The translations under genes and the position numbers were made by a program. Of a stretch of DNA of 64,000 nucleotides, positions 19,786 to 30,112 are shown one piece after another. The first letter of the stretch is position 1, and the number at the start of each line of letters is the position of its first letter. Location of the stretch: positions 1-64,000 of the forward strand of contig JAKFWF010000062.1 of assembly GCA_021730785.1 (NCBI GenBank), read 5' to 3'. The notes beneath the pieces were generated by a model, which was not told the DNA's origin, searched no databases, and saw only the letters and a list, made by a program, of their open reading frames with translations. The stretch comes from Hyphomicrobiaceae bacterium. GTDB taxonomy: Bacteria; Pseudomonadota; Alphaproteobacteria; Rhizobiales; Hyphomicrobiaceae.

Positions 19786-20781
19786 ATGGCGCTTCCCGCC
19801 TTCAATATGCGTCAGCTGCTCGAAGCTGGCGTGCACTTCGGTCACCAGTCGCATCGCTGGAACCCCAAGATGGCGACGTACATCTACGGCGCCCGCAACA
19901 ACATCCACATCGTCGACCTGACCCAGACGACGCCGCTGCTGCATCAGGCCCTCGTCAAGATCGCCGATACGGTGGCAGCCGGCGGCCGCGTGCTCTACGT
20001 CGGCACCAAGCGCCAGGCGTCCGAAGCCATCGCCGAAGCCGCCAAGCGCTCGGCGCAGTATTACATCAATCATCGCTGGCTCGGCGGCACGCTGACCAAC
20101 TGGAAGACGATTTCCGCCTCCATCCGCCGCCTGCGTCAGCTGGACGACATTCTGGCCGACCCGCAGGGCCGCACCAAGAAGGAAATCCTCACCATCACGC
20201 GTGAGCGCGAGAAGCTGAACCAGGCGCTGGGCGGCATCAAGGAGATGGGCGGCACGCCCGATCTGCTGTTCGTGATCGACACCAACAAGGAGCAGATCGC
20301 CATTGCCGAAGCGCGCAAGCTCGGCATTCCGATCGTCGCCGTGGTCGACACCAACTGCAACCCCGACGGCATCGATTTCCCGATCCCCGGTAACGACGAC
20401 GCCGGTCGCGCCATCACGCTCTATTGCGACCTGATCGCCCGTGCCGCGATCGACGGCATCCAGCGCAGCCAGGCCGGCTCCGGCGTCGACCTCGGCGCCA
20501 TGGAGAACCCGGCTGCCGAAATCCTGCCCACGGCCAAGGCCGTGTTCAAGGGCATCGAGGCGGCGCGCGGCGAAGCCGACGACTTGAAGCGCATCACCGG
20601 CGTCACCGAAAAGATCGAGCAGCGCTTGAACGATTCAGGCGTGTTCCACTTCTGGCAGATCGCCGACATGGACCCGGACAGCCAAGGCTTGCTCGACAAG
20701 CAGCTGCGCTTGAAGGGCCAGATCGCCAAGGATGACTGGATCGGCCAAGCCAAGAAGCTGGTGGCTGCCGCGGCTGTTTGA
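19786..20781 (+). CDS. rpsB: 30S ribosomal protein S2 with a C-terminal extension
   Basis: A 331-residue S2. The first 235 or so residues are ordinary ([82 protein letters not shown]). About 90 residues longer than E. coli S2, it ends in a domain [17 protein letters not shown] and HFWQIADMD that resembles a helix-hairpin-helix unit also seen fused to other proteins in Alphaproteobacteria; long S2 is known from Bradyrhizobium. It is in the usual order rpsB-tsf. Confidence 0.96.
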
Positions 20782-20880
20782 GAGCGAGTGAATAGGGAGT
20801 AGCGACTAGCGAATAGTGGTTTCGATCGCTACGCGCCGCTCGCTACTTGCCATTCGCTACGCACCATTCGCTATTCGCTC
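20782..20880. repeat. Palindromic spacer repeat of CGAATAG/CTATTCG type between rpsB and tsf
   Basis: The left side carries GAATAGGGAGTAGCGA and AGCGAATAGTGG. The right side carries their imperfect complements CCATTCGCTA and CCATTCGCTATTCGCTC. The whole gap folds back on itself. Similar arms (CTATTCGAACTCGCTCC) recur near 52390-52430. This is a dispersed element sitting inside an essential operon. The RNA could form a long stem between the two genes and affect their relative expression. Confidence 0.65.
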
Positions 20881-20892
20881 GGAGCAACATCA

Positions 20893-21822
20893 ATGACCAC
20901 GATAACCGCTGCCCTCGTCGCAGATTTGCGCGCCAAGACCGGCGTTGGCATGATGGACTGCAAGAAGGCGCTCAACGAGACCAAGGGCGATATGGAAGCG
21001 GCCATCGACTGGCTGCGCAAGAAGGGTCTGTCGAAGGCTGCGGCGAAGTCCGATCGGATCGCCGCGGAAGGCCTCGTTGGCATCATCGCCAAGGGGCCCA
21101 TGGGGGCGGTGACGGAGGTCAACTCCGAGACCGACTTCGTCGCCCGCAACACTCAGTTCCAGGAGATGGTGACTGCCATCACCGGGCTGTCGCCCAAGGC
21201 CAACGGCGACGTCGAGAAGCTGCTCGCCATGACCTATCCGGGCAAGACCGCGATCGTCGCCGACGTGGTCAAGGAAATGATCGCCACCATCGGCGAGAAC
21301 ATGAACGTGCGCCGCACCGCCACCGTCGCAGTGAGCGAAGGCGTAGTCGCCGACTACACCCATAACAAGGTGGCCGACGGCCTCGGCAAGATCGGCGTGC
21401 TGGTCGGCCTCGAGAGCAAGGGCGATGCCGCCAAGCTTACCGCGCTCGGCCGCCAGGTCGCCATGCACATCGCCGCCCGCAACCCCGTCGCCCTCGACAT
21501 CGACGGCATTCCAGCCGACATCCTGGCCCGCGAAAAGGCGATCCTGCTCGACAAGAACAAGGGCAAGCCCGACCACGTGCTGGAAAAGATCGCCGCCAGC
21601 GGCCTCAAGACCTACGCCAAGGAGAACTGCCTGCTCGACCAGGTGTTCGTGCTCGACGAAACCAAGACCGTGGCGCAGGCCCTCAAAGACGCCGAGAAGG
21701 GCGTTGGCGGGGCGATCAAGCTCACGAAGTACGTGCGCTATGCCCTGGGCGAAGGCATCGAAAAGAAGACCGAAGATTTCGCGGCCGAAGTGGCCGCTGC
21801 CGGCGGCGCTCCGAAGGCTTGA
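20893..21822 (+). CDS. tsf: Translation elongation factor Ts
   Basis: A 309-residue EF-Ts, the nucleotide exchange factor for EF-Tu. It shows the N-terminal UBA-like module (VADLRAKTGVGMMDCKKALNE), the conserved EVNSETDFVARN stretch that contacts EF-Tu, and two core subdomains (VLVGLESKGD, MHIAARNPVALD). GGAGCAAC precedes the ATG. It is the second gene of the rpsB-tsf operon, the classic bacterial arrangement. Confidence 0.97.
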   Translation: MTTITAALVADLRAKTGVGMMDCKKALNETKGDMEAAIDWLRKKGLSKAAAKSDRIAAEGLVGIIAKGPMGAVTEVNSETDFVARNTQFQEMVTAITGLSPKANGDVEKLLAMTYPGKTAIVADVVKEMIATIGENMNVRRTATVAVSEGVVADYTHNKVADGLGKIGVLVGLESKGDAAKLTALGRQVAMHIAARNPVALDIDGIPADILAREKAILLDKNKGKPDHVLEKIAASGLKTYAKENCLLDQVFVLDETKTVAQALKDAEKGVGGAIKLTKYVRYALGEGIEKKTEDFAAEVAAAGGAPKA

Positions 21823-21986
21823 ACAGCGCGCGGACTGAGCGTTCTTGGAGTGGCCGGCACGGGCAACCCAGCCGGCTGTTTCGTATGCGACATAACCATG
21901 ACACGCCCCGCGCTTGCTGGCGCATCTGCAATCCGGCATAAAGCGCGGAACCGCAAGACCAACAGACGCCAACAGGACTCCAGACC

Positions 21987-22409
21987 ATGGCCATCGAGCG
22001 TACCTTTTCCATTCTGAAGCCGGATGCAACCGCGCGCAATCTGACGGGCGGCATCAATGCTGTCATCGAGAAGGCCAGCCTGCGGATCGTTGCGCAGAAG
22101 CGCGTGCGCTGGACCCGCGCCCAGGCCGAAGCATTCTACGCCGAGCACAAGGCGCGCCCCTTCTTCGGGGAACTCGTGAACTTCATGACCTCGGGCCCGA
22201 TCGTGCTCCAGGTGCTCGAGGGCGAAGATGCCATCCTCAAGTATCGTGAGGTCATGGGCGCGACCGATCCGAAGGAAGCCAAGGATGGCACGATCCGCAA
22301 ACTGTTCGCCGTGTCAAAGGGCGAGAACTCGTCGCATGGCTCCGACAGCCCTGCGGCTGCCGAGCGTGAGATTGCGATGAATTTCCGCCTCGACGAAATC
22401 GTTGGCTGA
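21987..22409 (+). CDS. ndk: Nucleoside-diphosphate kinase
   Basis: A 140-residue NDK that passes phosphate from ATP to nucleoside diphosphates through a phospho-histidine. It starts [15 protein letters not shown] with the conserved Lys, and the active-site His is in [16 protein letters not shown]. The length is standard. It lies 164 bases after tsf in the same direction and probably has its own promoter. Confidence 0.97.
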
Positions 22410-22571
22410 TCGAGCAGCTGCAGTGACGTAGGTGCTATGCGGGCGGCAGGCGAGGTTGCGACCAGACAGCATCGACGCGTGACATCAAGTGGCTCGCGCA
22501 GAGCCTGCAAAACGCGAAGTAGTCGGACCTGACAAAGTCAGTACTGGCCAGCATGGAGAGCAAGGATCGCC

Positions 22572-22961
22572 ATGACCCGCCGCCTCATTTCGTCAGGATC
22601 GAAATTCGAAGCTGAGATCGGCTATTCCCGTGCCGTGGTCGACGGCGGCTTCGTGTTTGTCTCCGGCACCACCGGCTATGACTATGCAACCATGACGCTG
22701 GCCGATGGGGTCGTCGCCCAGTGCCGGCAGACGCTCGCCAACATTGAAGCGGCGCTGAAGGAAGCCGGCTGCAGCTTCGATGATGTGGTGCGCGTGACCT
22801 ACATCGTGCCTGATCCGGCGGACTTCGAGCGCTGTTGGCCGCTGCTGCGGGCTGCGTTCGCAAGAGCACGTCCGGCCGCCACCATGCTGAGCACGGCGCT
22901 GATGAACCCGGCCATGAAAATCGAGATCGAAGTGACGGCACGGCTGAGGACACATCCATGA
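22572..22961 (+). CDS. RidA-superfamily (YjgF/YER057c/UK114) protein
   Basis: A 129-residue Rid-fold protein. The family pattern is seen in VVDGGFVFVSGTTGYDY, a central helix QTLANIEAALKEAG, VVRVTYIVPDPADF and the C-terminal MKIEIEVTA. The Arg that makes RidA an imine deaminase (VARLPK in E. coli) is not at the matching place, which reads STALMNPAMKIEIE. It probably belongs to one of the Rid subgroups without proven deaminase activity. It is coupled to the following DinB gene by ATGA. Confidence 0.85.
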   Translation: MTRRLISSGSKFEAEIGYSRAVVDGGFVFVSGTTGYDYATMTLADGVVAQCRQTLANIEAALKEAGCSFDDVVRVTYIVPDPADFERCWPLLRAAFARARPAATMLSTALMNPAMKIEIEVTARLRTHP

Positions 22962-23464
22962 TCACGCCGGCTCACGCCCAGGCGATGGCGCGCTATAATC
23001 GCTGGCAGAACCGCTCGCTCTATGGCACAGCCGATCGATTGCCGGACGTCGAGCGCAAGCGGGCGCGCGGGGCCTTCTTCGAAAGCATCCATGGCACGTT
23101 GAGCCACATCCTGTTCGGCGACCAGATCTGGCTGTTTCGCTTCACCGGCACCACTCAACAACCGCTGGCGAAGTCCATCGCCGAGTCGGCAACGGCGATC
23201 CCCGAATGGGCGGAACTGAAGGCCGCACGCATCGACTTCGACGAGGTCACTATCGCGTGGGCCGATCAGCTCACGGCCGCCGATCTCGAGGGCGACCTCA
23301 CCTGGTATTCGGGCGCCAGGGGAGAGAACATCACGCGACCGCGCTGGCTCTTGATCACGCACATGTTCAATCACCAGACGCACCATCGCGGGCAGGTGCA
23401 TTGCCTGCTGACCCAGAACGGCCTCAGGATGGACGATACCGACATTCCGTTCGGGCCGGTTTAG
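22958..23464 (+). CDS. DinB-family protein (metal-binding four-helix bundle)
   Basis: A 168-residue protein of the DinB/YfiT superfamily. Candidate metal ligands are the His in HGTLSHILFGDQIW (about residue 50) and the HxxxH in MFNHQTHHRGQVHCLL (about residues 130-137). These proteins are thiol- or damage-related transferases in some bacteria; most have no assigned substrate. The ATG overlaps the RidA-like stop, so the two are co-translated. The N-terminal MITPAHAQAMARYNRWQN is typical of the family. Confidence 0.87.
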   Translation: MITPAHAQAMARYNRWQNRSLYGTADRLPDVERKRARGAFFESIHGTLSHILFGDQIWLFRFTGTTQQPLAKSIAESATAIPEWAELKAARIDFDEVTIAWADQLTAADLEGDLTWYSGARGENITRPRWLLITHMFNHQTHHRGQVHCLLTQNGLRMDDTDIPFGPV

Positions 23465-23802
23465 CCAATTGACGCGACCGGCGCCTGTCGGATGTTGTCC
23501 GGACCTGTCGACGGTCTTTGGCCCATGGGTGGTGGCGCGTTGGCTGGTTCAATCCTTGCGTGATCTCAGTATCGATCCGTCCGCGCTGGCCCTGGTGTCA
23601 TCCCGGCACTTGTGATCGGAACCCAGTGGGCGACTGCCGAGGTGACAGCGCTTGTCGCGCAATGAATTCCAGCGCAAGTGGCCAGGATGACTTCTTTGGG
23701 CGGCTGATCTGAGCTCGGCCGCCGATCCGCTGTACCTTGAGAAACAAAGGAATTTCGGAATACTCAACATTCCTGTAGCGAGTAGAGGTCGGACTGTCGA
23801 CT
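23465..23802. other. Intergenic region holding a palindromic repeat
   Basis: No gene is convincing here. The middle is taken by the second copy of the P repeat (listed separately). Both neighbouring genes end into this region, DinB from the left and the last small secreted protein from the right. I see no strong T-run terminator; the palindrome may serve as one. Confidence 0.55.
23594..23691. repeat. Dispersed palindromic repeat (family P, copy 2, degenerate)
   Basis: It begins GGTGTCATCCCGGCACTTG, followed by CGGAACCCA, and ends CAAGTGGCCAGGATGAC, so its ends are inverted complements with some mismatches. The first half is nearly the same as the start of the full copy at 30955 (GGTGTCATCCCGGCATTT). 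The centre has drifted. Confidence 0.65.
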
Positions 23803-24054
23803 TTAGCGCGACGAACTCTGTCCGCCCAAGGCAACACGCGCCCAATCTGGATAGTTTTTGTAATTGCCGGCCGGGTCGGCGTCGTGCGCGCGATATGAGT
23901 ACTCGTTTCGAACCTGCGCAGGCGGACGATCCGGCACTGCCGGCGCGACGGTGCGGCGCAAGGGCGTACGACGCTCGGCCGCTTCTGCCGCTCCGATACC
24001 GGGAAACAGGGCAAAGACAGCAGCGACTGTGCCGGCCACGACCGTGATCCGCAT
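23803..24054 (-). CDS. Small secreted protein, type A (A3) of a tandem family
   Basis: An 83-residue protein with a signal peptide (MRITVVAGTVAAVFALFPG, cleavage near AEA/AERR) and a basic mature part of about 57 residues. It ends with the family motif RA(x3)DPA(x2)Y(x2)YPDWARVAL and the tail GGQSSSR. GGAGG six bases before the ATG supports the start. Nineteen bases separate it from the type B gene upstream (B3), so the two form a B-A pair. I do not recognise a function; the conserved motif near the C-terminus, not enzyme residues, is what the copies share. Confidence 0.75.
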   Translation of the reverse strand: MRITVVAGTVAAVFALFPGIGAAEAAERRTPLRRTVAPAVPDRPPAQVRNEYSYRAHDADPAGNYKNYPDWARVALGGQSSSR

Positions 24055-24073
24055 GACAAACCTCCACGATGTT

Positions 24074-24340
24074 TCAGCGGCTTCGGCCACCGTACTTGGG
24101 TGAGAGCGCGACACGGGCCCAATCGGGATACTCCCCGTAGGTGCGGGCCGGATCGAGGCTGTTGGCGCGTACCGTGTGCGAGTTGTCGCGCGAGGCAGTC
24201 TTCGGGCGATTTTTCCCATCGCTGCGCCGTTCGGCTTGAGCACGCGTGCGAGCAGAACTCTCGGCGGCGTCGGCAACTGTCACGAATGTCATTGCCGCAA
24301 TGCTGCTGGCAAGTGCTGACATCATAAGTTTGAACCGCAT
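24074..24340 (-). CDS. Small secreted protein, type B (B3) of a tandem family
   Basis: An 88-residue protein: signal peptide of about 25 residues (ASSIAAMTFVTVADA), then SSARTRAQAERRSDG, a Lys/Arg-rich middle, NSHTVRANSLDPARTYGEYP and DWARVALSPKYGGRSR. It shares the YPDWAR core with the type A proteins but differs in the signal peptide and middle. It is first in the B3-A3 pair. A 25-base element upstream (24405-24429) is nearly identical to one before the other intact type B gene. Function unknown. Confidence 0.75.
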   Translation of the reverse strand: MRFKLMMSALASSIAAMTFVTVADAAESSARTRAQAERRSDGKNRPKTASRDNSHTVRANSLDPARTYGEYPDWARVALSPKYGGRSR

Positions 24341-24404
24341 CAGAGGAAGCCTTTCGGTATTTTCTATGATCAGTTCGGAGATTAAATGCTACGGTTTCAG
24401 GCTC

Positions 24405-24429
24405 GTCACTGGCAACACAATGTTTCGTG
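24405..24429 (-). promoter_or_regulatory. Duplicated upstream element of the B3-A3 pair
   Basis: These 25 bases differ at one position from 25574-25598. They sit 64 bases before the B3 start, and the other copy sits 59 bases before B1. On the minus strand it reads CACGAAACATTGTGTTGCC then RGTGAC. TTGCC followed 17-18 bases later by an AT-rich hexamer could be a -35/-10 pair. Conservation of the upstream DNA suggests common control. Confidence 0.45.
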
Positions 24430-24572
24430 GTTTCGTGTTGAAGTCGCAGCAGCGAACACGCGCGTCTACGTGAGCCGCTCACTGTGAGTGATCGGGTGCC
24501 AAACCAAGCATCCATGCGAGCGCCAATGCTCGGCGATTTCGGATCGATCCGCGCAGGGAGGTTGCAGAAACG

Positions 24573-24824
24573 TCAGCGCGACGAGCTTCTGGAACCGAGC
24601 GCAACGCGGGCCCAATTGGGATAATTCTTGTAGGTGCCGGCCGGGTCGGCGACGTGGGCGCGCACAGCATACTCTTCTTCCAGCCGCGCCGACGACCTGT
24701 CGGGCACCGGTTGCGCGACGACTTTGCGCACAGTTGGTCGGCGCTCGGCGGCATCCGCCGGCAGTGCTCCGAACACGACAAAGTATGCTGCAGCCAAGCT
24801 ACCGGCGAAACTCACGATTCGCAT
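24573..24824 (-). CDS. Small secreted protein, type A (A2) of a tandem family
   Basis: An 83-residue protein, collinear with A3 and A1: signal peptide MRIVSFAGSLAAAYFVVFGA (cleavage near ADA/AERR), a basic linker KVVAQPVPDRSSARLEEE, then RAHVADPAGTYKNYPNWARV and the same C-terminal SRSSSR. The ATG at 24824 has CAGGAG upstream, in the same position as in A1. Its expected type B partner is reduced to a remnant just upstream. Function unknown. Confidence 0.75.
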   Translation of the reverse strand: MRIVSFAGSLAAAYFVVFGALPADAAERRPTVRKVVAQPVPDRSSARLEEEYAVRAHVADPAGTYKNYPNWARVALGSRSSSR

Positions 24825-24837
24825 GACCAACTCCTGA

Positions 24838-24912
24838 TGTCGTATCGGCGCCACCTGCCACCATCGACCTTCGGCGCCATAGCTACGCGCAACCAGCGCG
24901 GATAACCGTTGA
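24838..24912 (-). pseudogene. Remnant of a third type B gene (B2)
   Basis: On the minus strand this stretch reads NGYPRWLRVAMAPKVDGGRW, which matches the C-terminal end of B1 (GGYPDWARVALSPKSDGG). It lies directly upstream of A2, at the place where B1 and B3 lie before A1 and A3. The stop codon and the N-terminal two thirds are gone. This shows that the locus once held three B-A units and that one B gene was lost by deletion. Confidence 0.7.
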
Positions 24913-24967
24913 CTCTGCCTGATAAGTGGACATCGTGCCACCTGGACAGACTTGGGCGGCAATGACG

Positions 24968-25225
24968 CTAGCGCGACGAGCTTCTGGAGCCGAGCGCCGT
25001 GCGAGCCCAATCGGGATAATTCTTGTAATTTCCGGCTGGATCAGCGTCGTGTGCACGCCACGAATCGCTGCTGTCGACCCGCGACTGCGACCGATCAGGT
25101 GCCTGCTGCTTCGGCACGACCGCTCGACGTACGGATGTACGACGCTCGGCTGCTTCCACGGGAAGGGCGCTTGGCACGATTAGGCACACGGCGGCTAGGC
25201 CGCCGACGAAGCTCGCGATTCGCAT
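24968..25225 (-). CDS. Small secreted protein, type A (A1) of a tandem family
   Basis: An 85-residue protein: signal peptide MRIASFVGGLAAVCLIVPSA (cleavage near VEA/AERR), middle VVPKQQAPDRSQSRVDSSDS, then the family motif RAHDADPAGNYKNYPDWAR and TALGSRSSSR. The start at 25225 has CAGGAG upstream. It lies 19 bases after B1, the same gap as between B3 and A3. Function unknown. Confidence 0.75.
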   Translation of the reverse strand: MRIASFVGGLAAVCLIVPSALPVEAAERRTSVRRAVVPKQQAPDRSQSRVDSSDSWRAHDADPAGNYKNYPDWARTALGSRSSSR

Positions 25226-25244
25226 GATCACTCCTGATGAAGTT

Positions 25245-25514
25245 TTAGCGGCGCCTGCCGCCGCCATCGGACTTGGGCGAGAGCGCTACGCGTGCCCAGT
25301 CGGGATAACCGCCGTATGTGCGGGCGGGATCGAGGCTATTGGCACGTACCGTGTGCGAATTTTCTTTCGATGCGCGATACTTGCGGTACTTGGAGTAGCG
25401 CTGCTCGGCTTGGGCACGTGTACGATTGGAAGTTTCAGCGGCAGTTGCGACAGAGACGAGGGAAGCTGCTGCCACGCTGCCAGTGAGTGCCACAATTAGA
25501 AATTTGAGGCGCAT
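25245..25514 (-). CDS. Small secreted protein, type B (B1) of a tandem family
   Basis: An 89-residue protein. The signal peptide (LIVALTGSVAAASLVSVATA) is followed by AETSNRTRAQAEQRYSKYRK, then NSHTVRANSLDPARTYGGYP, DWARVALSPKSDGG and an Arg tail. It is about 70% like B3 by eye. It is the most upstream gene of the array and probably carries the promoter for B1-A1. The mature protein is short, very basic and rich in Tyr and Arg, which would suit binding to nucleic acid, membrane or cell wall, but nothing proves this. Confidence 0.75.
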   Translation of the reverse strand: MRLKFLIVALTGSVAAASLVSVATAAETSNRTRAQAEQRYSKYRKYRASKENSHTVRANSLDPARTYGGYPDWARVALSPKSDGGGRRR

Positions 25515-25573
25515 CTGCCAAACCTTCCAGAGGGGAAACGAAGCGAACTGCCATAACTTATGGCAGACAGCCT

Positions 25574-25598
25574 GTCACCGGCAACACAATGTTTCGTG
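25574..25598 (-). promoter_or_regulatory. Duplicated upstream element of the B1-A1 pair
   Basis: Nearly identical to 24405-24429 and at the same distance from its gene. On the minus strand TTGCCG is followed after 17 bases by ATAAGT, a reasonable vegetative promoter. The duplication unit therefore included the control region, not just the genes. Confidence 0.45.
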
Positions 25599-25686
25599 TG
25601 TCCGTTGCCGCAGCAAACCGGCAAGGGTAGGTTCGTTGCGGGGTTCCAAGGGGTATTAAACCAGCAAAGCAGGCCGGGACGTTCGC

Positions 25687-26124
25687 ATGATCGTGACCAA
25701 GGGGAAGAGCTATTGTTTCGAGGATTTGGAGCTTGGGCACGTTGCCAGCATGGAACGCGTCGTAGCTCAAACCGACGTCACGTCGTTTGCCGCCATCAGT
25801 GGCGACCACAATCCCATCCATCTGGACGAAGCCTACGCTGCCAAGACGAGGTTTGGCGGGTGCATTACGCACGGAATGCTGACGGCGAGCTATATCTCGG
25901 CGGTGTTTGCCATGGAATTGCCGGGGCCGGGTGCGGTTTACATCTCCCAGACGCTGAATTTCGTCGGGCCGGTGCGGGTTGGCGACACGGTGCGAACACA
26001 AGTCACGGTGGTCGAGTTGTTCCCGGCCAAGCGCCGCGTCCGCTTCGCTTGTGAGTGCTCGGTCGCTGGCAAAAACGTACTGACTGGCGAAGCCATGCTG
26101 ATGGTGCAAGCCCGCCCCGTGTGA
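25687..26124 (+). CDS. MaoC-like (R)-specific enoyl-CoA hydratase
   Basis: A 145-residue single hot-dog protein. The hydratase 2 motif is present: FAAISGDHNPIHLD supplies the catalytic Asp and His, followed by ARFGGCITHGML-like FGGCITHGMLTASYIS. PhaJ-type members turn crotonyl-CoA-like substrates into (R)-3-hydroxyacyl-CoA, often for polyhydroxyalkanoate; other members act in dehydration of other acyl-CoAs. The size fits PhaJ, and it is too short for mesaconyl-CoA hydratase. It stands alone, divergent from the small-protein array. Confidence 0.88.
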   Translation: MIVTKGKSYCFEDLELGHVASMERVVAQTDVTSFAAISGDHNPIHLDEAYAAKTRFGGCITHGMLTASYISAVFAMELPGPGAVYISQTLNFVGPVRVGDTVRTQVTVVELFPAKRRVRFACECSVAGKNVLTGEAMLMVQARPV

Positions 26125-26402
26125 GCTGGCCGATGCAGGAACAGGTGCGGCGGCAGCAGCGCGAGCTGCCGTTTCGCACGTCGGCAAATCGTCCGAACAA
26201 GGGCGGTAAGAGTTTTGCGCTGCTCAAATTTTGTAACTGTCAACAGGCGCCTTGTGCTCAATCCATTTCAAACATGTACAAATAGTTAGAACAGTTTCTT
26301 TCCTTGCTTGAAGTAGGCCATCGGTTGTCGTAGCACCGCCCCACAAACGTGGAGTTGCGGACCTACGAAATGGCAATCCTGAGTATACGTACAAGTCATC
26401 AC

Positions 26403-27356
26403 ATGCAGTTGAAATCTGCCTTGCTTCCTGTGCTTTTGGCGCTGACGGCATCCGGTGCGACGAAACCGGCGCACGCTGGCAATCCGATGTTCGGCGCGAT
26501 GGAGCAACTGGCCAAGATCCAGGACGTGGAGTTCAAGGATCTCGATGGCGAACCTCTGTACCTGGGATTCAAGTATTCCTACCACTCTTTTGTTGCACCC
26601 TATCGCGTGACCGATGACGGCTACATCATCGGCGTGGTCGGTCAGAACCGCTACTATCCGCTCAGTGCCAATCTGATCAACGAACTGCAGGGCAAAGGCC
26701 AGTTGCCAAAGCCACTGCCGACCTACCAGTTGTCGCCCCAAACCTATGCCTATGGGCACATCGTGTGGATCATCCTGGCGGGGTTCCTGGCGTCCGTGTT
26801 CGGCGCAACACGGGGCCACGCACGCACGCGCCGGGCCCTGCCGTTTGCCAACGAAGGCATCGCGCTCGAACGGGCGGGCAATTTCGAGCATGCGCTTGCC
26901 GCCTATGACAAAGCATTGAAGCGTGCGCCGCGCCATTGCGACATCCTGTGCCGTCGCGCCAATCTGCATCACAACCGCGGCAACTTCGATTCAGCGATCG
27001 CCGACTTCACGCGCGCGATCACCGTCGACAAGCGCAATGCGCTCGCCCTGCTCGGGCGCGGCTCGGCGTTCGAAGCCAAGAATCTCGGCCGGGAAGCGAT
27101 CGAGGATTATAGCCACGCGATCAGGATCAGCGAGGGTGCGCTCGCCTATTTCGCCCGCGGCAACGCATACCTCGCCGCCGCTGAGTTCGACAAGGCGATC
27201 GCTGACTTCACGACCGTCATCGCCAAGGAGCCGCAGTTGGCCGCCGCCTACCAGAACCGCGGCCTCGCCCACGAGCGCACTGGTGCTGCCCCACAGGCCC
27301 AGGCCGACTATCAGCTCGCCGCTACGCTCGCAGCAGCCCAGAAGTCCGCGGCATAG
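26403..27356 (+). CDS. Membrane-anchored TPR protein
   Basis: A 317-residue protein with a signal-like N-terminus (LLPVLLALTASGATKPAHA), a domain of about 90 residues without known match (GAMEQLAKIQDVEFKDLDGE), a membrane helix (IVWIILAGFLASVFGAT, about residues 120-138), and four to five TPR units from about residue 150 on (GNFEHALAAYDKALKRAPRH, GNFDSAIADFTRAITVDKRN, REAIEDYSHAIRIS, AEFDKAIADFTTVIAKEPQL). TPRs hold partner proteins; the partner is unknown. ATG 26403 was chosen because it begins the signal sequence. Confidence 0.8.
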   Translation: MQLKSALLPVLLALTASGATKPAHAGNPMFGAMEQLAKIQDVEFKDLDGEPLYLGFKYSYHSFVAPYRVTDDGYIIGVVGQNRYYPLSANLINELQGKGQLPKPLPTYQLSPQTYAYGHIVWIILAGFLASVFGATRGHARTRRALPFANEGIALERAGNFEHALAAYDKALKRAPRHCDILCRRANLHHNRGNFDSAIADFTRAITVDKRNALALLGRGSAFEAKNLGREAIEDYSHAIRISEGALAYFARGNAYLAAAEFDKAIADFTTVIAKEPQLAAAYQNRGLAHERTGAAPQAQADYQLAATLAAAQKSAA

Positions 27357-27439
27357 CGCCCATGCGGTCCGCGCGATGTTCGCAGCCGGCCGTGCGCTGG
27401 TAGTGTCCTGCGCCAGTCGCCACGCAAGGAGCCCGCCGC

Positions 27440-28648
27440 ATGCCGTCTTCGAAGCCCGCGAAATCCGCCAAGGCCACCAAATCACCAGCTGTGGTGCGCG
27501 CCGATAAGATCCGCGTTGCAACCTACGATGGTCCGGGCGCCGAGCCGGTGATCCGCGAGGTGCCCTGGCCGCGCATCGGGCCCAAGGCTGCCCTGATCCA
27601 GATCGGTGCCTGTGGCGTGTGCGGCACCGACCAGCACATCCTCAAGGGCCATTGGCCCAAGCCGCTGCCGTGGCCGTTCACGCTCGGCCATGAGTTGGCC
27701 GGCAAAATCGTCGAGATCGGCGCCGATCTGAAAGCCGACCACATGGGCAAAGCGATCGGCATCGGCTCGAAGCTGATGCTGCCGCCGCTGATGCCGTGCG
27801 GCTTCTGCGACTGGTGCAAGCGCTATCCCGAGCAGTCGAACAAGTGCCTCACCCCCGTCTACTATGGGCGCTATCTCGGCTTCGACAAGCCGCCGCACCT
27901 GTGGGGCGGCTGGGCCGAGTACGTCTATGTCGATCTTGAGGAATTGCCTGGCACCAAGATCTACAAGTTGCCAGACGACATGAGCTATCGCCTTGGCTCG
28001 CTGTCGGAGCCTCTGACCTCGTGCATCCGCGCGTTCAACCGGGCAGCCAGAGCCGGCGGCTTCAAGTGGGGCGACACGGTCGTCATCCAGGGCACCGGGC
28101 CGATCGGCATTCTCGCCATTGCCGCGGCCCAGGAGATGGGGGCTGGCCGTGTCATCGCGGTCGGTGCGCCCGAGACGCCGCGGTTGAAACTTGCCCGCCG
28201 GTTCGGTGCGGAAGCAACCGTCGACATCGAGGCGGTGACCTCGCCCGAGGCGCGGATTAAAGCGGTGCGCGACATCGTCGGTGGCTATGGTGCTGATCTT
28301 GTGATGGATTGCTCTGGCCATCCGAGTGCCGGACCCGAAGGCATCGAATTCCTGCGCGACGGCGGCACCTATGTCGAGATGGGGCAGTTCACGGACGCGG
28401 GATCGATCATGACCTCCTGGCATCGCATCTGTACGAAGGATCTGAACGTGCTGGGCTCGTGGGCCTTCACTGCGAACGATCTGGCGCTCGGCGTCGAGAT
28501 GCTCGACCGTGCCCGCAACAAGTATCCCTGGCTCGACATGCAGACGACGTATCCGTTTACCCTGCAGGGTGTGAAAGCTGCGGTTGCCGACGCGATGGCG
28601 ATGAGGACCGTGAAAAGCACGATCATTCCGTTCGAAGAGCTGGTGTGA
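27440..28648 (+). CDS. Zinc-dependent alcohol dehydrogenase-family oxidoreductase
   Basis: A 402-residue medium-chain dehydrogenase. Catalytic zinc ligands are in GACGVCGTDQHI and TLGHELAG; four structural-zinc Cys lie in PCGFCDWCKRYPEQSNKC. The Rossmann site is IQGTGPIGILAIAAAQ. A Lys/Ala-rich tail precedes the domain. The loops are closer to polyol/threonine dehydrogenases than to ethanol dehydrogenase, but the substrate is unclear. AGGAG nine bases upstream supports the ATG. The next gene, an MFS transporter, follows closely and may bring in or remove its substrate. Confidence 0.87.
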   Translation: MPSSKPAKSAKATKSPAVVRADKIRVATYDGPGAEPVIREVPWPRIGPKAALIQIGACGVCGTDQHILKGHWPKPLPWPFTLGHELAGKIVEIGADLKADHMGKAIGIGSKLMLPPLMPCGFCDWCKRYPEQSNKCLTPVYYGRYLGFDKPPHLWGGWAEYVYVDLEELPGTKIYKLPDDMSYRLGSLSEPLTSCIRAFNRAARAGGFKWGDTVVIQGTGPIGILAIAAAQEMGAGRVIAVGAPETPRLKLARRFGAEATVDIEAVTSPEARIKAVRDIVGGYGADLVMDCSGHPSAGPEGIEFLRDGGTYVEMGQFTDAGSIMTSWHRICTKDLNVLGSWAFTANDLALGVEMLDRARNKYPWLDMQTTYPFTLQGVKAAVADAMAMRTVKSTIIPFEELV

Positions 28649-28712
28649 ACCGGTAATGCCTGCACCTCCGACGTCAGCGAACGGAACCCCCATGATGCGG
28701 GCAGGACAAGAC

Positions 28713-29966
28713 ATGACGGCAGCGCTTGCCGCGGCCAAGGCCGACATCGACGGCGCCTATGCGTGGCGGCGGCTCCTGGTGTCGCTGCTGCTGTCGACGA
28801 TCGGCGGCATCGGCCTGTGGTCGGTGGTAGTCGCGTTGCCGACCGTGCAGGCCGAGTTCGGCGTGCAGCGCGGCACCGCATCCCTGCCCTACACCATGAC
28901 GATGCTCGGGATCGCAATCGGCGGCATCGGTATGGGCCGGCTCGCCGATCGTTTCGGCATCGTCCGGCCGCTCACGATCGCGACGCTGGCGCTGGCCGGC
29001 GGGTTCATCCTGTCGTCGCAGGTGCGCACGCTGTGGGAGTTCATCCTGGTCCAGGGGCTGGTGATCGGCATGGCCGGCAGTGCCGCAACCTTCGGGCCGC
29101 TGATCGCCGATATCTCGCACTGGTTCAACCGGCGTCGGGGCATTGCGGTTGCTATTTGCGCCAGTGGCAACTATCTCGCCGGCACCATTTGGCCACCCCT
29201 CCTGCAGGCGGTAATCGCCGACCATGGCTGGCGTACGGCGCACGTCGACATCGGCGTCATCTGCCTCGTCACCATGCTGCCGCTGATCCTGCTGCTGCGG
29301 CGGCCCTCGCCGATCGAGCGCGGACCTGCGGTTGTAGCGCTGTCCGGCGTCACCGGCGCGCCGCTCGCATCGACCTCGACCGGACTGCTGCAAACGCTGC
29401 TGATCATTGCCGGCTTCGCCTGCTGCGTCGCCATGGCGATGCCGCAGGTGCACATCGTTGCCTATTGCGCGGATCTGGGTTTTGGGCCGGCGCGGGGTGC
29501 GGAGATGCTGTCGCTGATGCTGGGGCTGGGCGTCGTCAGCCGTATCGCGTCGGGCTGGATCGCCGACCGCATCGGCGGGGCTGCGACCTTGCTCGTCGGC
29601 TCCGCATTGCAGTGCCTGACCTTGATCCTCTATCTCCCATTCGACGGCCTCATGTCGCTCTATGTCGTGTCTGCGCTGTTCGGCTTGAGCCAGGGCGGCA
29701 TCGTGCCGAGCTACGCGATCATCGTGCGCGAACGATTTCCGGCGACCGAAGCCGGCACCCGCGTTGGCCTCGTCATCATGGCGACGATTGTCGGCATGGC
29801 AGTCGGTGGCTGGCTGACGGGGGCGATCTACGATCTGACCGGCTCCTACCAGACCGCATTCCTGCACGGCATCGCCTGGAACGTCGTCAACGTGGCGATC
29901 GCACTGTGGCTCTGGCTCGGGCGCACACTACGGCCTGCGGCGCGTTTGTCCGTTCAGGGAGCGTAG
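28713..29966 (+). CDS. MFS transporter
   Basis: A 417-residue protein with twelve predicted membrane helices. The MFS loop signature between helices 2 and 3 is visible as GMGRLADRFGIVRPL, and its repeat in the second half is GWIADRIGG. The overall layout resembles the oxalate/formate or monocarboxylate group. I chose ATG 28713, which has AGGA six bases upstream; in-frame ATGs at 28656 and 28692 are possible. It probably shares a transcript with the dehydrogenase. The stop codon (TAG) is made by the first bases of the REP-like element that starts at 29963. Confidence 0.87.
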   Translation: MTAALAAAKADIDGAYAWRRLLVSLLLSTIGGIGLWSVVVALPTVQAEFGVQRGTASLPYTMTMLGIAIGGIGMGRLADRFGIVRPLTIATLALAGGFILSSQVRTLWEFILVQGLVIGMAGSAATFGPLIADISHWFNRRRGIAVAICASGNYLAGTIWPPLLQAVIADHGWRTAHVDIGVICLVTMLPLILLLRRPSPIERGPAVVALSGVTGAPLASTSTGLLQTLLIIAGFACCVAMAMPQVHIVAYCADLGFGPARGAEMLSLMLGLGVVSRIASGWIADRIGGAATLLVGSALQCLTLILYLPFDGLMSLYVVSALFGLSQGGIVPSYAIIVRERFPATEAGTRVGLVIMATIVGMAVGGWLTGAIYDLTGSYQTAFLHGIAWNVVNVAIALWLWLGRTLRPAARLSVQGA

Positions 29967-30112
29967 GTTGGGATAGCGGGCCCCAATGGTCGCGGCCATG
30001 GGGATATCGAAGTTCCCGCGCAACCCAACGACTACCCGTGGAATGTTGGGTTACAGCGGAATGAAATGCGGCATGTTTATTCGTGGTGCGGTGGCCGCCT
30101 AACCCAACCTAC
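29963..30112. repeat. REP-like nested inverted repeat (family R, copy 2)
   Basis: Outer arms GTAGGTTGGGATAG and CTAACCCAACCTAC, inner arms CAACCCAACG and TGTTGGGTTAC, with a longer centre than the other two copies. It fills the whole gap between the converging MFS gene and ABC ATPase gene and supplies the TAG stop of both: GTAG for MFS, and GTAGGTTGGGTTAG read as R-L-G-stop for the ATPase. It could also end transcription from both sides. Confidence 0.85.

Follow-up and report, generated by a model that had tools for sequence, protein, structure and literature searches.

The window analyzed here, a 64,000-nucleotide stretch of a Hyphomicrobiaceae bacterium, carries a row of short genes for two types of small protein, termed B and A. 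This arrangement raises the question of what such proteins do and whether the two types need each other.

Genes, selection, and upstream sequence of the array

An initial annotation described five short genes on one strand, and this was confirmed as five intact minus-strand ORFs in the order B1-A1-A2-B3-A3: B1 (25245 to 25514, 89 aa), A1 (24968 to 25225, 85 aa), A2 (24573 to 24824, 83 aa), B3 (24074 to 24340, 88 aa), and A3 (23803 to 24054, 83 aa). All five proteins have a signal-like N terminus (MR..., a hydrophobic stretch, and an AxA-type end, as judged by eye and by simple hydropathy), and the C-terminal motif RAxxxDPAxxYxxYP[DN]WARxAL, proposed as common to both types, is present in 5/5 of them. 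The mature parts are basic, as first described, with net charges of +3.9 to +8.9 and pI values of 10.1 to 10.9 when cleavage sites are set by eye. A gap of 19 bases separates the genes of both intact pairs (25226 to 25244 for B1-A1; 24055 to 24073 for B3-A3). A2 is preceded by a remnant, B2 (24835 to 24908, minus strand), which was recovered by repeat search, alignment, and translation and covers the final ∼21 codons of a gene of type B. The remnant reads GYPRWLRVAMAPKVDGGRWRR, with an altered motif and a lost stop, and aligns to the tail of B1 at 72% DNA identity. The view that the locus holds two paralogous types, formed by repeated duplication of a B-A unit and kept as two lasting lineages, was upheld. 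A further copy of the array family was not found in the source genome, which is 99.26% complete.

Over their full length, four same-type pairs gave dN values of 0.24 to 0.36, dS values of 1.05 to 1.98, and dN/dS ratios of 0.17 to 0.25. Between same-type paralogues, dN was 0.05 to 0.12 in the motif (the last 29 to 31 codons), while the stretch before it was the least conserved (dN of 0.36 to 0.54). These values point to old duplications with the motif under strong purifying selection, and, judging by them, the array genes are not a chance pattern. The existence of B2 as a remnant only would fit an array that is decaying or nonfunctional. However, the low dN/dS ratios and a motif dN of at most 0.12 argue against decay, which we regard as most improbable.

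A 25-base element lies upstream of B1 (25574 to 25598, minus strand, 59 bases from the start codon) and, with one mismatch, upstream of B3 (24405 to 24429, minus strand, 64 bases from the start codon); apart from this element, the sequences upstream of B1 and B3 are much diverged. Genome-wide, the element occurs twice at ≤3 mismatches, with no occurrence in the reversed control. Before A1, A2, and A3, and before three genes of the related genomes G010 and G006, the best matches (11 to 13 of 25 bases) were at the level of random windows. The element at B1 and B3, taken with the random-level matches at A1, A2, and A3, suggests that the genes likely form two transcription units, B1-A1-remnant-A2 and B3-A3. 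Promoter-like sites between 23500 and 25800 numbered two versus 0.7 expected (sd 0.9) and were left out of the argument. An inverted repeat (CTGCCATAA-C-TTATGGCAG, plus strand) was seen by eye at 25548 to 25566, between the element and B1, and none was seen by eye before B3. There was no Rfam match in 20000 to 30000.

The statement that no described system has this makeup holds for the libraries searched, in which Pfam and NCBIfam cutoffs were not reached. The best subthreshold Pfam/NCBIfam matches of the five proteins, C_GCAxxG_C_C (E 0.0057) and Pur_ac_phosph_N (E 0.0074), both to B1, fell far under the cutoffs and were rejected; the single match in a PDB sequence search run with B1 only (E 0.068) was dropped. 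Six motif strings of the family did not occur in the literature searched. Kinship with BA14K (PF07886) had been suggested by eye, as BA14K proteins are likewise small, come from the same bacteria, and have a C-terminal motif with a C..DPxxGxYxxY look. Alignment of the two motifs by hhalign gave a probability of 0.5% (E 0.13), and the kinship was rejected; PF07886 was absent from the Pfam matches, listed to E 10, for the 15 family members scanned, and BA14K genes are present separately in 5/6 genomes tested. DUF4148 (PF13663) proteins are also short, with a signal-like start and similarity to the TRAQ of type B and the DP..YP stretch. This candidate was rejected as well, with B3 scoring 10.6 bits against a cutoff of 27 and hhalign covering the signal stretch only.

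Distribution of the family and the pairing of A and B

A profile search within the same taxonomic family, covering 103 genomes, matched 12 at E 0.01, and 8 were accepted, with genes at E 1.7e-14 or better. These 8/103 carrier genomes hold 16 family genes, a distribution suggesting that the family is dispensable in most relatives. Among the other four matched genomes, one (G013) was accepted as carrying a mini-peptide (see below) and three (G068, G072, and G081) were left uncounted; the G072 ORF ends in LPCWARKAFSDDRT and is without a signal-like start in the stretch read. A full-length profile, with limited sensitivity, found the family in 3/397 genomes of the order, all from its own taxonomic family, and a class-wide search found it in 1/385 genomes, the source genome itself. 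Because these order and class searches scored at most 13 to 19 candidates per genome, and because the sampling of the five other carriers in family f1 is uncertain, absence elsewhere counts as weak evidence.

Duplication with retention of two types had been taken as a sign that B and A work together, and in its strict form this reading has them forming one complex as an obligate two-partner system. The B-A units were indeed duplicated whole, with their 19-base gaps retained, and G010 also has two adjacent relatives. However, among the 8 carrier genomes, adjacent family genes occur in the window and in G010 only. G006, G029, G017, G018, and G035 each have one family gene, G062 has three on separate contigs, and G010 has a third family gene elsewhere in addition to its pair. 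Single or unlinked genes are thus found in 6/8 carrier genomes, two of which are incomplete (G017, 73%; G062, 83%). Type B does not always sit next to type A: in G017, a B-like gene (55.5 bits to B1 versus 39.3 to A1) is the sole family member on its contig, and A2 has outlived the decayed B2 in the window itself. In the tree, the window A genes group together (98/97), as do the window B genes (87/86), but the G010 pair is not separated into B plus A; its second gene has PDRP and the motif in common with A3. Gene layout and tree across the carriers indicate that pairing is a local event rather than a rule. An obligate A-B pair appears unlikely from these comparisons, and we give a single complex of the two a rather poor chance.

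Mini-peptides with a similar C terminus and the chromosomal slot

Outside the family, a profile of the C-terminal module matched peptides of very small size with YPxWA[RQ]xAF, or something close to it, at their end. At E 0.01, and again with at most 13 to 19 candidates scored per genome, this profile matched 14/397 genomes of the order: 3 in family f1, 4 (G042, G045, G059, and G159) with mini-peptides that could be read out, and 7 (loci L058, L059, L062, L063, L064, L067, and L068) that were rejected as having no framing signal-like start and stop. At one of the latter, L058 (G162, from another family; E 6.7e-4), the sequence around 1501 to 1572 reads DPGGKHRNYPCRLRRAL, resembling a damaged version of the motif. 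A mini-peptide profile matched 109/337 order genomes at E 0.01. Many of these matches covered the signal stretch only and were not counted, and those in G000 and G018 were to the long-linker family. Mini-peptides were confirmed by reading in at least 10/337 genomes from at least 6 families of the order, some with looser ends (e.g., LPIWAQDVF or QPGWAQQIF); G013, from the same taxonomic family as the window, also carries one. The array family is real and unmodelled in the libraries searched, and its motif is wider than first thought. Peptides of the YPTFVENS type in family f33 are no more than candidates for the mini-peptide set. Small f33 peptides at L131, L132, L164, and L165 have a signal-like start with FGI[KQ]YP nearby, repeated in two of them, and may be a distinct family of equal size.

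The mini-peptides resemble the window proteins in having a signal-like start and YPxWAxxA[FL], or a near form of it, shortly before the stop, and they resemble the array in forming tandem rows of different types. In contrast to the window proteins, they are mostly acidic and lack both a basic linker and the full RAxxxDPxG part. The YPxWAxxA[FLI] core near the C terminus, by which the mini-peptide set was defined, is found in all five window proteins. Alignment of the family core with the mini-peptides by hhalign gave 96.7% (E 4.6e-10), and a second comparison gave 97.2% (E 3.2e-11), values that are not independent because the mini-peptides were found through the same motif. Matches between the two groups are weak both ways, and the 19 to 22 columns aligned by hhalign are so short that convergence is possible.

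In genus g35, 3 genomes have rows of three mini-peptide types whose order is always alpha-beta-gamma(n), with 7 genes in G045, 4 in G195, and 4 in G253 and gaps of 42 to 53 bases. The products of these rows, which represent three species (L150:7024-8237, L151:7550-8232, and L152:6770-7447), are peptides of ∼44 residues with a signal-like part, past which they extend only ∼20 residues. Their dN/dS ratios are 0.11 to 0.47 (16 pairs computed), and type alpha has the motif only in a loose version with W, SNW[VL]LDSY. Under a broad reading, all YPxWAxxA[FL] proteins would be one superfamily of exported peptides in this order, acting as messages from cell to cell or from envelope to regulator and encoded in multi-peptide operons, with the window proteins as its long-linker branch and the g35 rows as its minimal branch; we consider this quite unlikely.

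The mini-peptides also bear on the proposal that the window proteins are basic periplasmic proteins binding DNA, lipopolysaccharide (LPS), or another polymer, with charge as the function. The pI and net charge of the mature window proteins are in keeping with such a role, but the basic linker is the part that changes fastest (the pre-motif dN exceeds that of the motif, as given above), and 7/8 of the mini-peptide relatives computed are acidic, with pI values of 4.1 to 4.4. The wider motif set shows no conservation of charge, and polymer binding by charge seems decidedly improbable.

Neighboring genes differ among the mini-peptide loci. G042 has one mini-peptide gene after a fasciclin gene, which in turn is divergent from an ECF sigma/RskA pair; a second one stands in line with genes for an ECF sigma factor, a small protein without a name, and a cupredoxin-like protein (L153:4949-7289 and L154:4998-7208). 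The G045 row is flanked by a Mur-ligase-domain gene (folC-like, our own label) and a thioredoxin gene, and the rows of G195, G253, and G159 are flanked by an ORF of 440 residues that is alike by its first residues. Beyond G042, tested neighbors of mini-peptide loci were a Mur-ligase-domain gene, thioredoxin, and smpB. The neighborhoods in G042 and around the rows weakly indicate envelope or redox stress.

The position of the array is marked by a convergent DinB-family gene from outside the family (22958 to 23464, plus strand; PF05163, E 2.4e-24). The 3' ends of the family genes point toward a DinB-family gene in G006, in G010, and in the window; the G029 family gene instead faces ndk, with no DinB homologue there past E 1e-30. 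The other flank is a molybdopterin oxidoreductase gene in G006 and G010, was also judged to be one in G029 from its first residues only, and is a MaoC gene in the window. DinB homologues occur in 39/103 genomes of the same taxonomic family. A small ORF combining the motif core with a signal-like start occupied the convergent slot at 4 of the 29 non-own DinB loci listed, in a scan spanning 900 bases (four loci were shorter, at 10, 293, 527, and 805). These slots belong to G006 and to three genomes of genus g12 (G011, G033, and G079), and none was seen in the DinB slot of a fourth g12 genome, G080. In the g12 proteins, H[PA]xWAANAF comes a short way past the signal and is followed by a tail that we label His/Tyr-rich. 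The G011 gene had previously been a weak match to the mini-peptide profile (E 0.0048), whereas position was the sole guide to the G033 and G079 genes; their recovery in this way lends support to the WAxxAF core. The slot convergent to DinB has been retained across several genera. At g12 loci L099, L101, and L103, beside DinB (L162:4030-4305 for G011), the pattern CSxRGxHCxHxxWAANAFEGP was observed, and these His/Tyr-rich proteins could bind metal.

A bacteriocin-like or toxin/immunity pair was another early suggestion. The proteins are small, probably exported, and of two tandem types, and 1/15 family members weakly matches the putative bacteriocin Pfam model YxzE (E 0.036). However, the five window neighbors tested are ndk, Rid-family, DinB, MaoC, and TPR genes; none (0/5) has a role in toxicity, immunity, or transport, and a class II bacteriocin operon with adjacent immunity and export genes was not found among them. 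PADLOC gave no match for the array proteins (E up to 0.1), and PHROGs gave nothing better than E 0.052 (B1, to an entry of unknown function). A3 had no match in plasmids and phages, alignment A4 gave 26 stretches in viral contigs with 0 confirmed, and one mini-peptide searched against plasmids at E up to 10 returned two weak unrelated matches only. As the position is also held by a chromosomal slot, we judge this option very unlikely.

The C-terminal module as a candidate docking domain

AF2 models of B1 and A1 were weak overall (mean pLDDT values of 65.0 and 63.5 and pTM values of 0.33 and 0.34 across the two models), with residues 51 to 80 reaching block means of 77 to 86 pLDDT. A1 was modelled with helices at 53 to 61 and 72 to 82, and B1 with one helix at 3 to 61 (mostly low confidence) and another at 72 to 78. 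In alignments, cysteine pairs surround the module as C..DP..YPC in 6/16 genes and as CDP..AFxC in 2/16, with neither form in 8/16. These cysteines may form disulfides in a folded, extracytoplasmic module.

These features are relevant to the possibility that the proteins are secreted peptide signals, in which the C-terminal end, once released or exposed, would be the message, the linker a pro-region, and the rows of different types a means of sending several messages. A signal-like start, a variable middle, and a conserved end near the stop are consistent with peptide signals, as are the g35 peptides, with their short span after the signal-like part, their fixed rows, and their dN/dS ratios. 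In contrast, the cysteine pairs and the helix-loop-helix of the models speak more for a domain that folds than for a peptide that is processed, g35 type alpha retains the loose W motif only, and no receptor, protease, or exporter was present among the subset of neighbors tested. Peptide signaling is thus unlikely, in our estimate.

We tentatively favor, at somewhat less than an even chance, the interpretation that these are extracytoplasmic docking microproteins with a conserved C-terminal module and variable linkers, tandem-duplicated for dosage and specificity. They would form a family of narrow taxonomic range, probably exported and enlarged by tandem duplication, each member with a signal-like N terminus, a fast-evolving basic linker, and a conserved C-terminal module of ∼30 residues (RAxxxDPxGxYxxYPxWARxAL) that the models show as a pair of helices with a DP...YP loop between them. 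The module would dock on a common extracytoplasmic partner, either an envelope protein or a polymer, and the linker would tune the position of the protein. A and B would then be two diverged versions retained for specificity and dosage, expressed from two putative transcription units under one common regulatory element, perhaps with envelope or redox stress input.

We counted in favor of docking the concentration of purifying selection in the module, the AF2 block means, the core alignment with the mini-peptides, the conserved DinB slot, and the 25-base element; the cysteine pairs in relatives would fit a folded module in an oxidizing compartment. The fasciclin/ECF sigma/RskA and ECF sigma/cupredoxin-like neighborhoods of G042 were counted for docking and a stress connection. 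Against docking, we counted the weak overall AF2 models and the presence of the family in few genomes; the stress link comes from one genome, the neighbors tested at other mini-peptide loci being the Mur-ligase-domain, thioredoxin, and smpB genes, with no sigma factor among the tested neighbors of the window array. From the functions initially listed, a cell-envelope factor was kept, and toxin/immunity, bacteriocin, and charge-based DNA or polymer binding were not retained.

If the docking interpretation is right, the family would provide a motif for microproteins that Pfam and NCBIfam miss at their cutoffs and that are seen in ordered tandem rows. It would also offer a small testable system, in which an extracytoplasmic partner would read the YPxWAxxAF end and there would be a reason for keeping several versions side by side.
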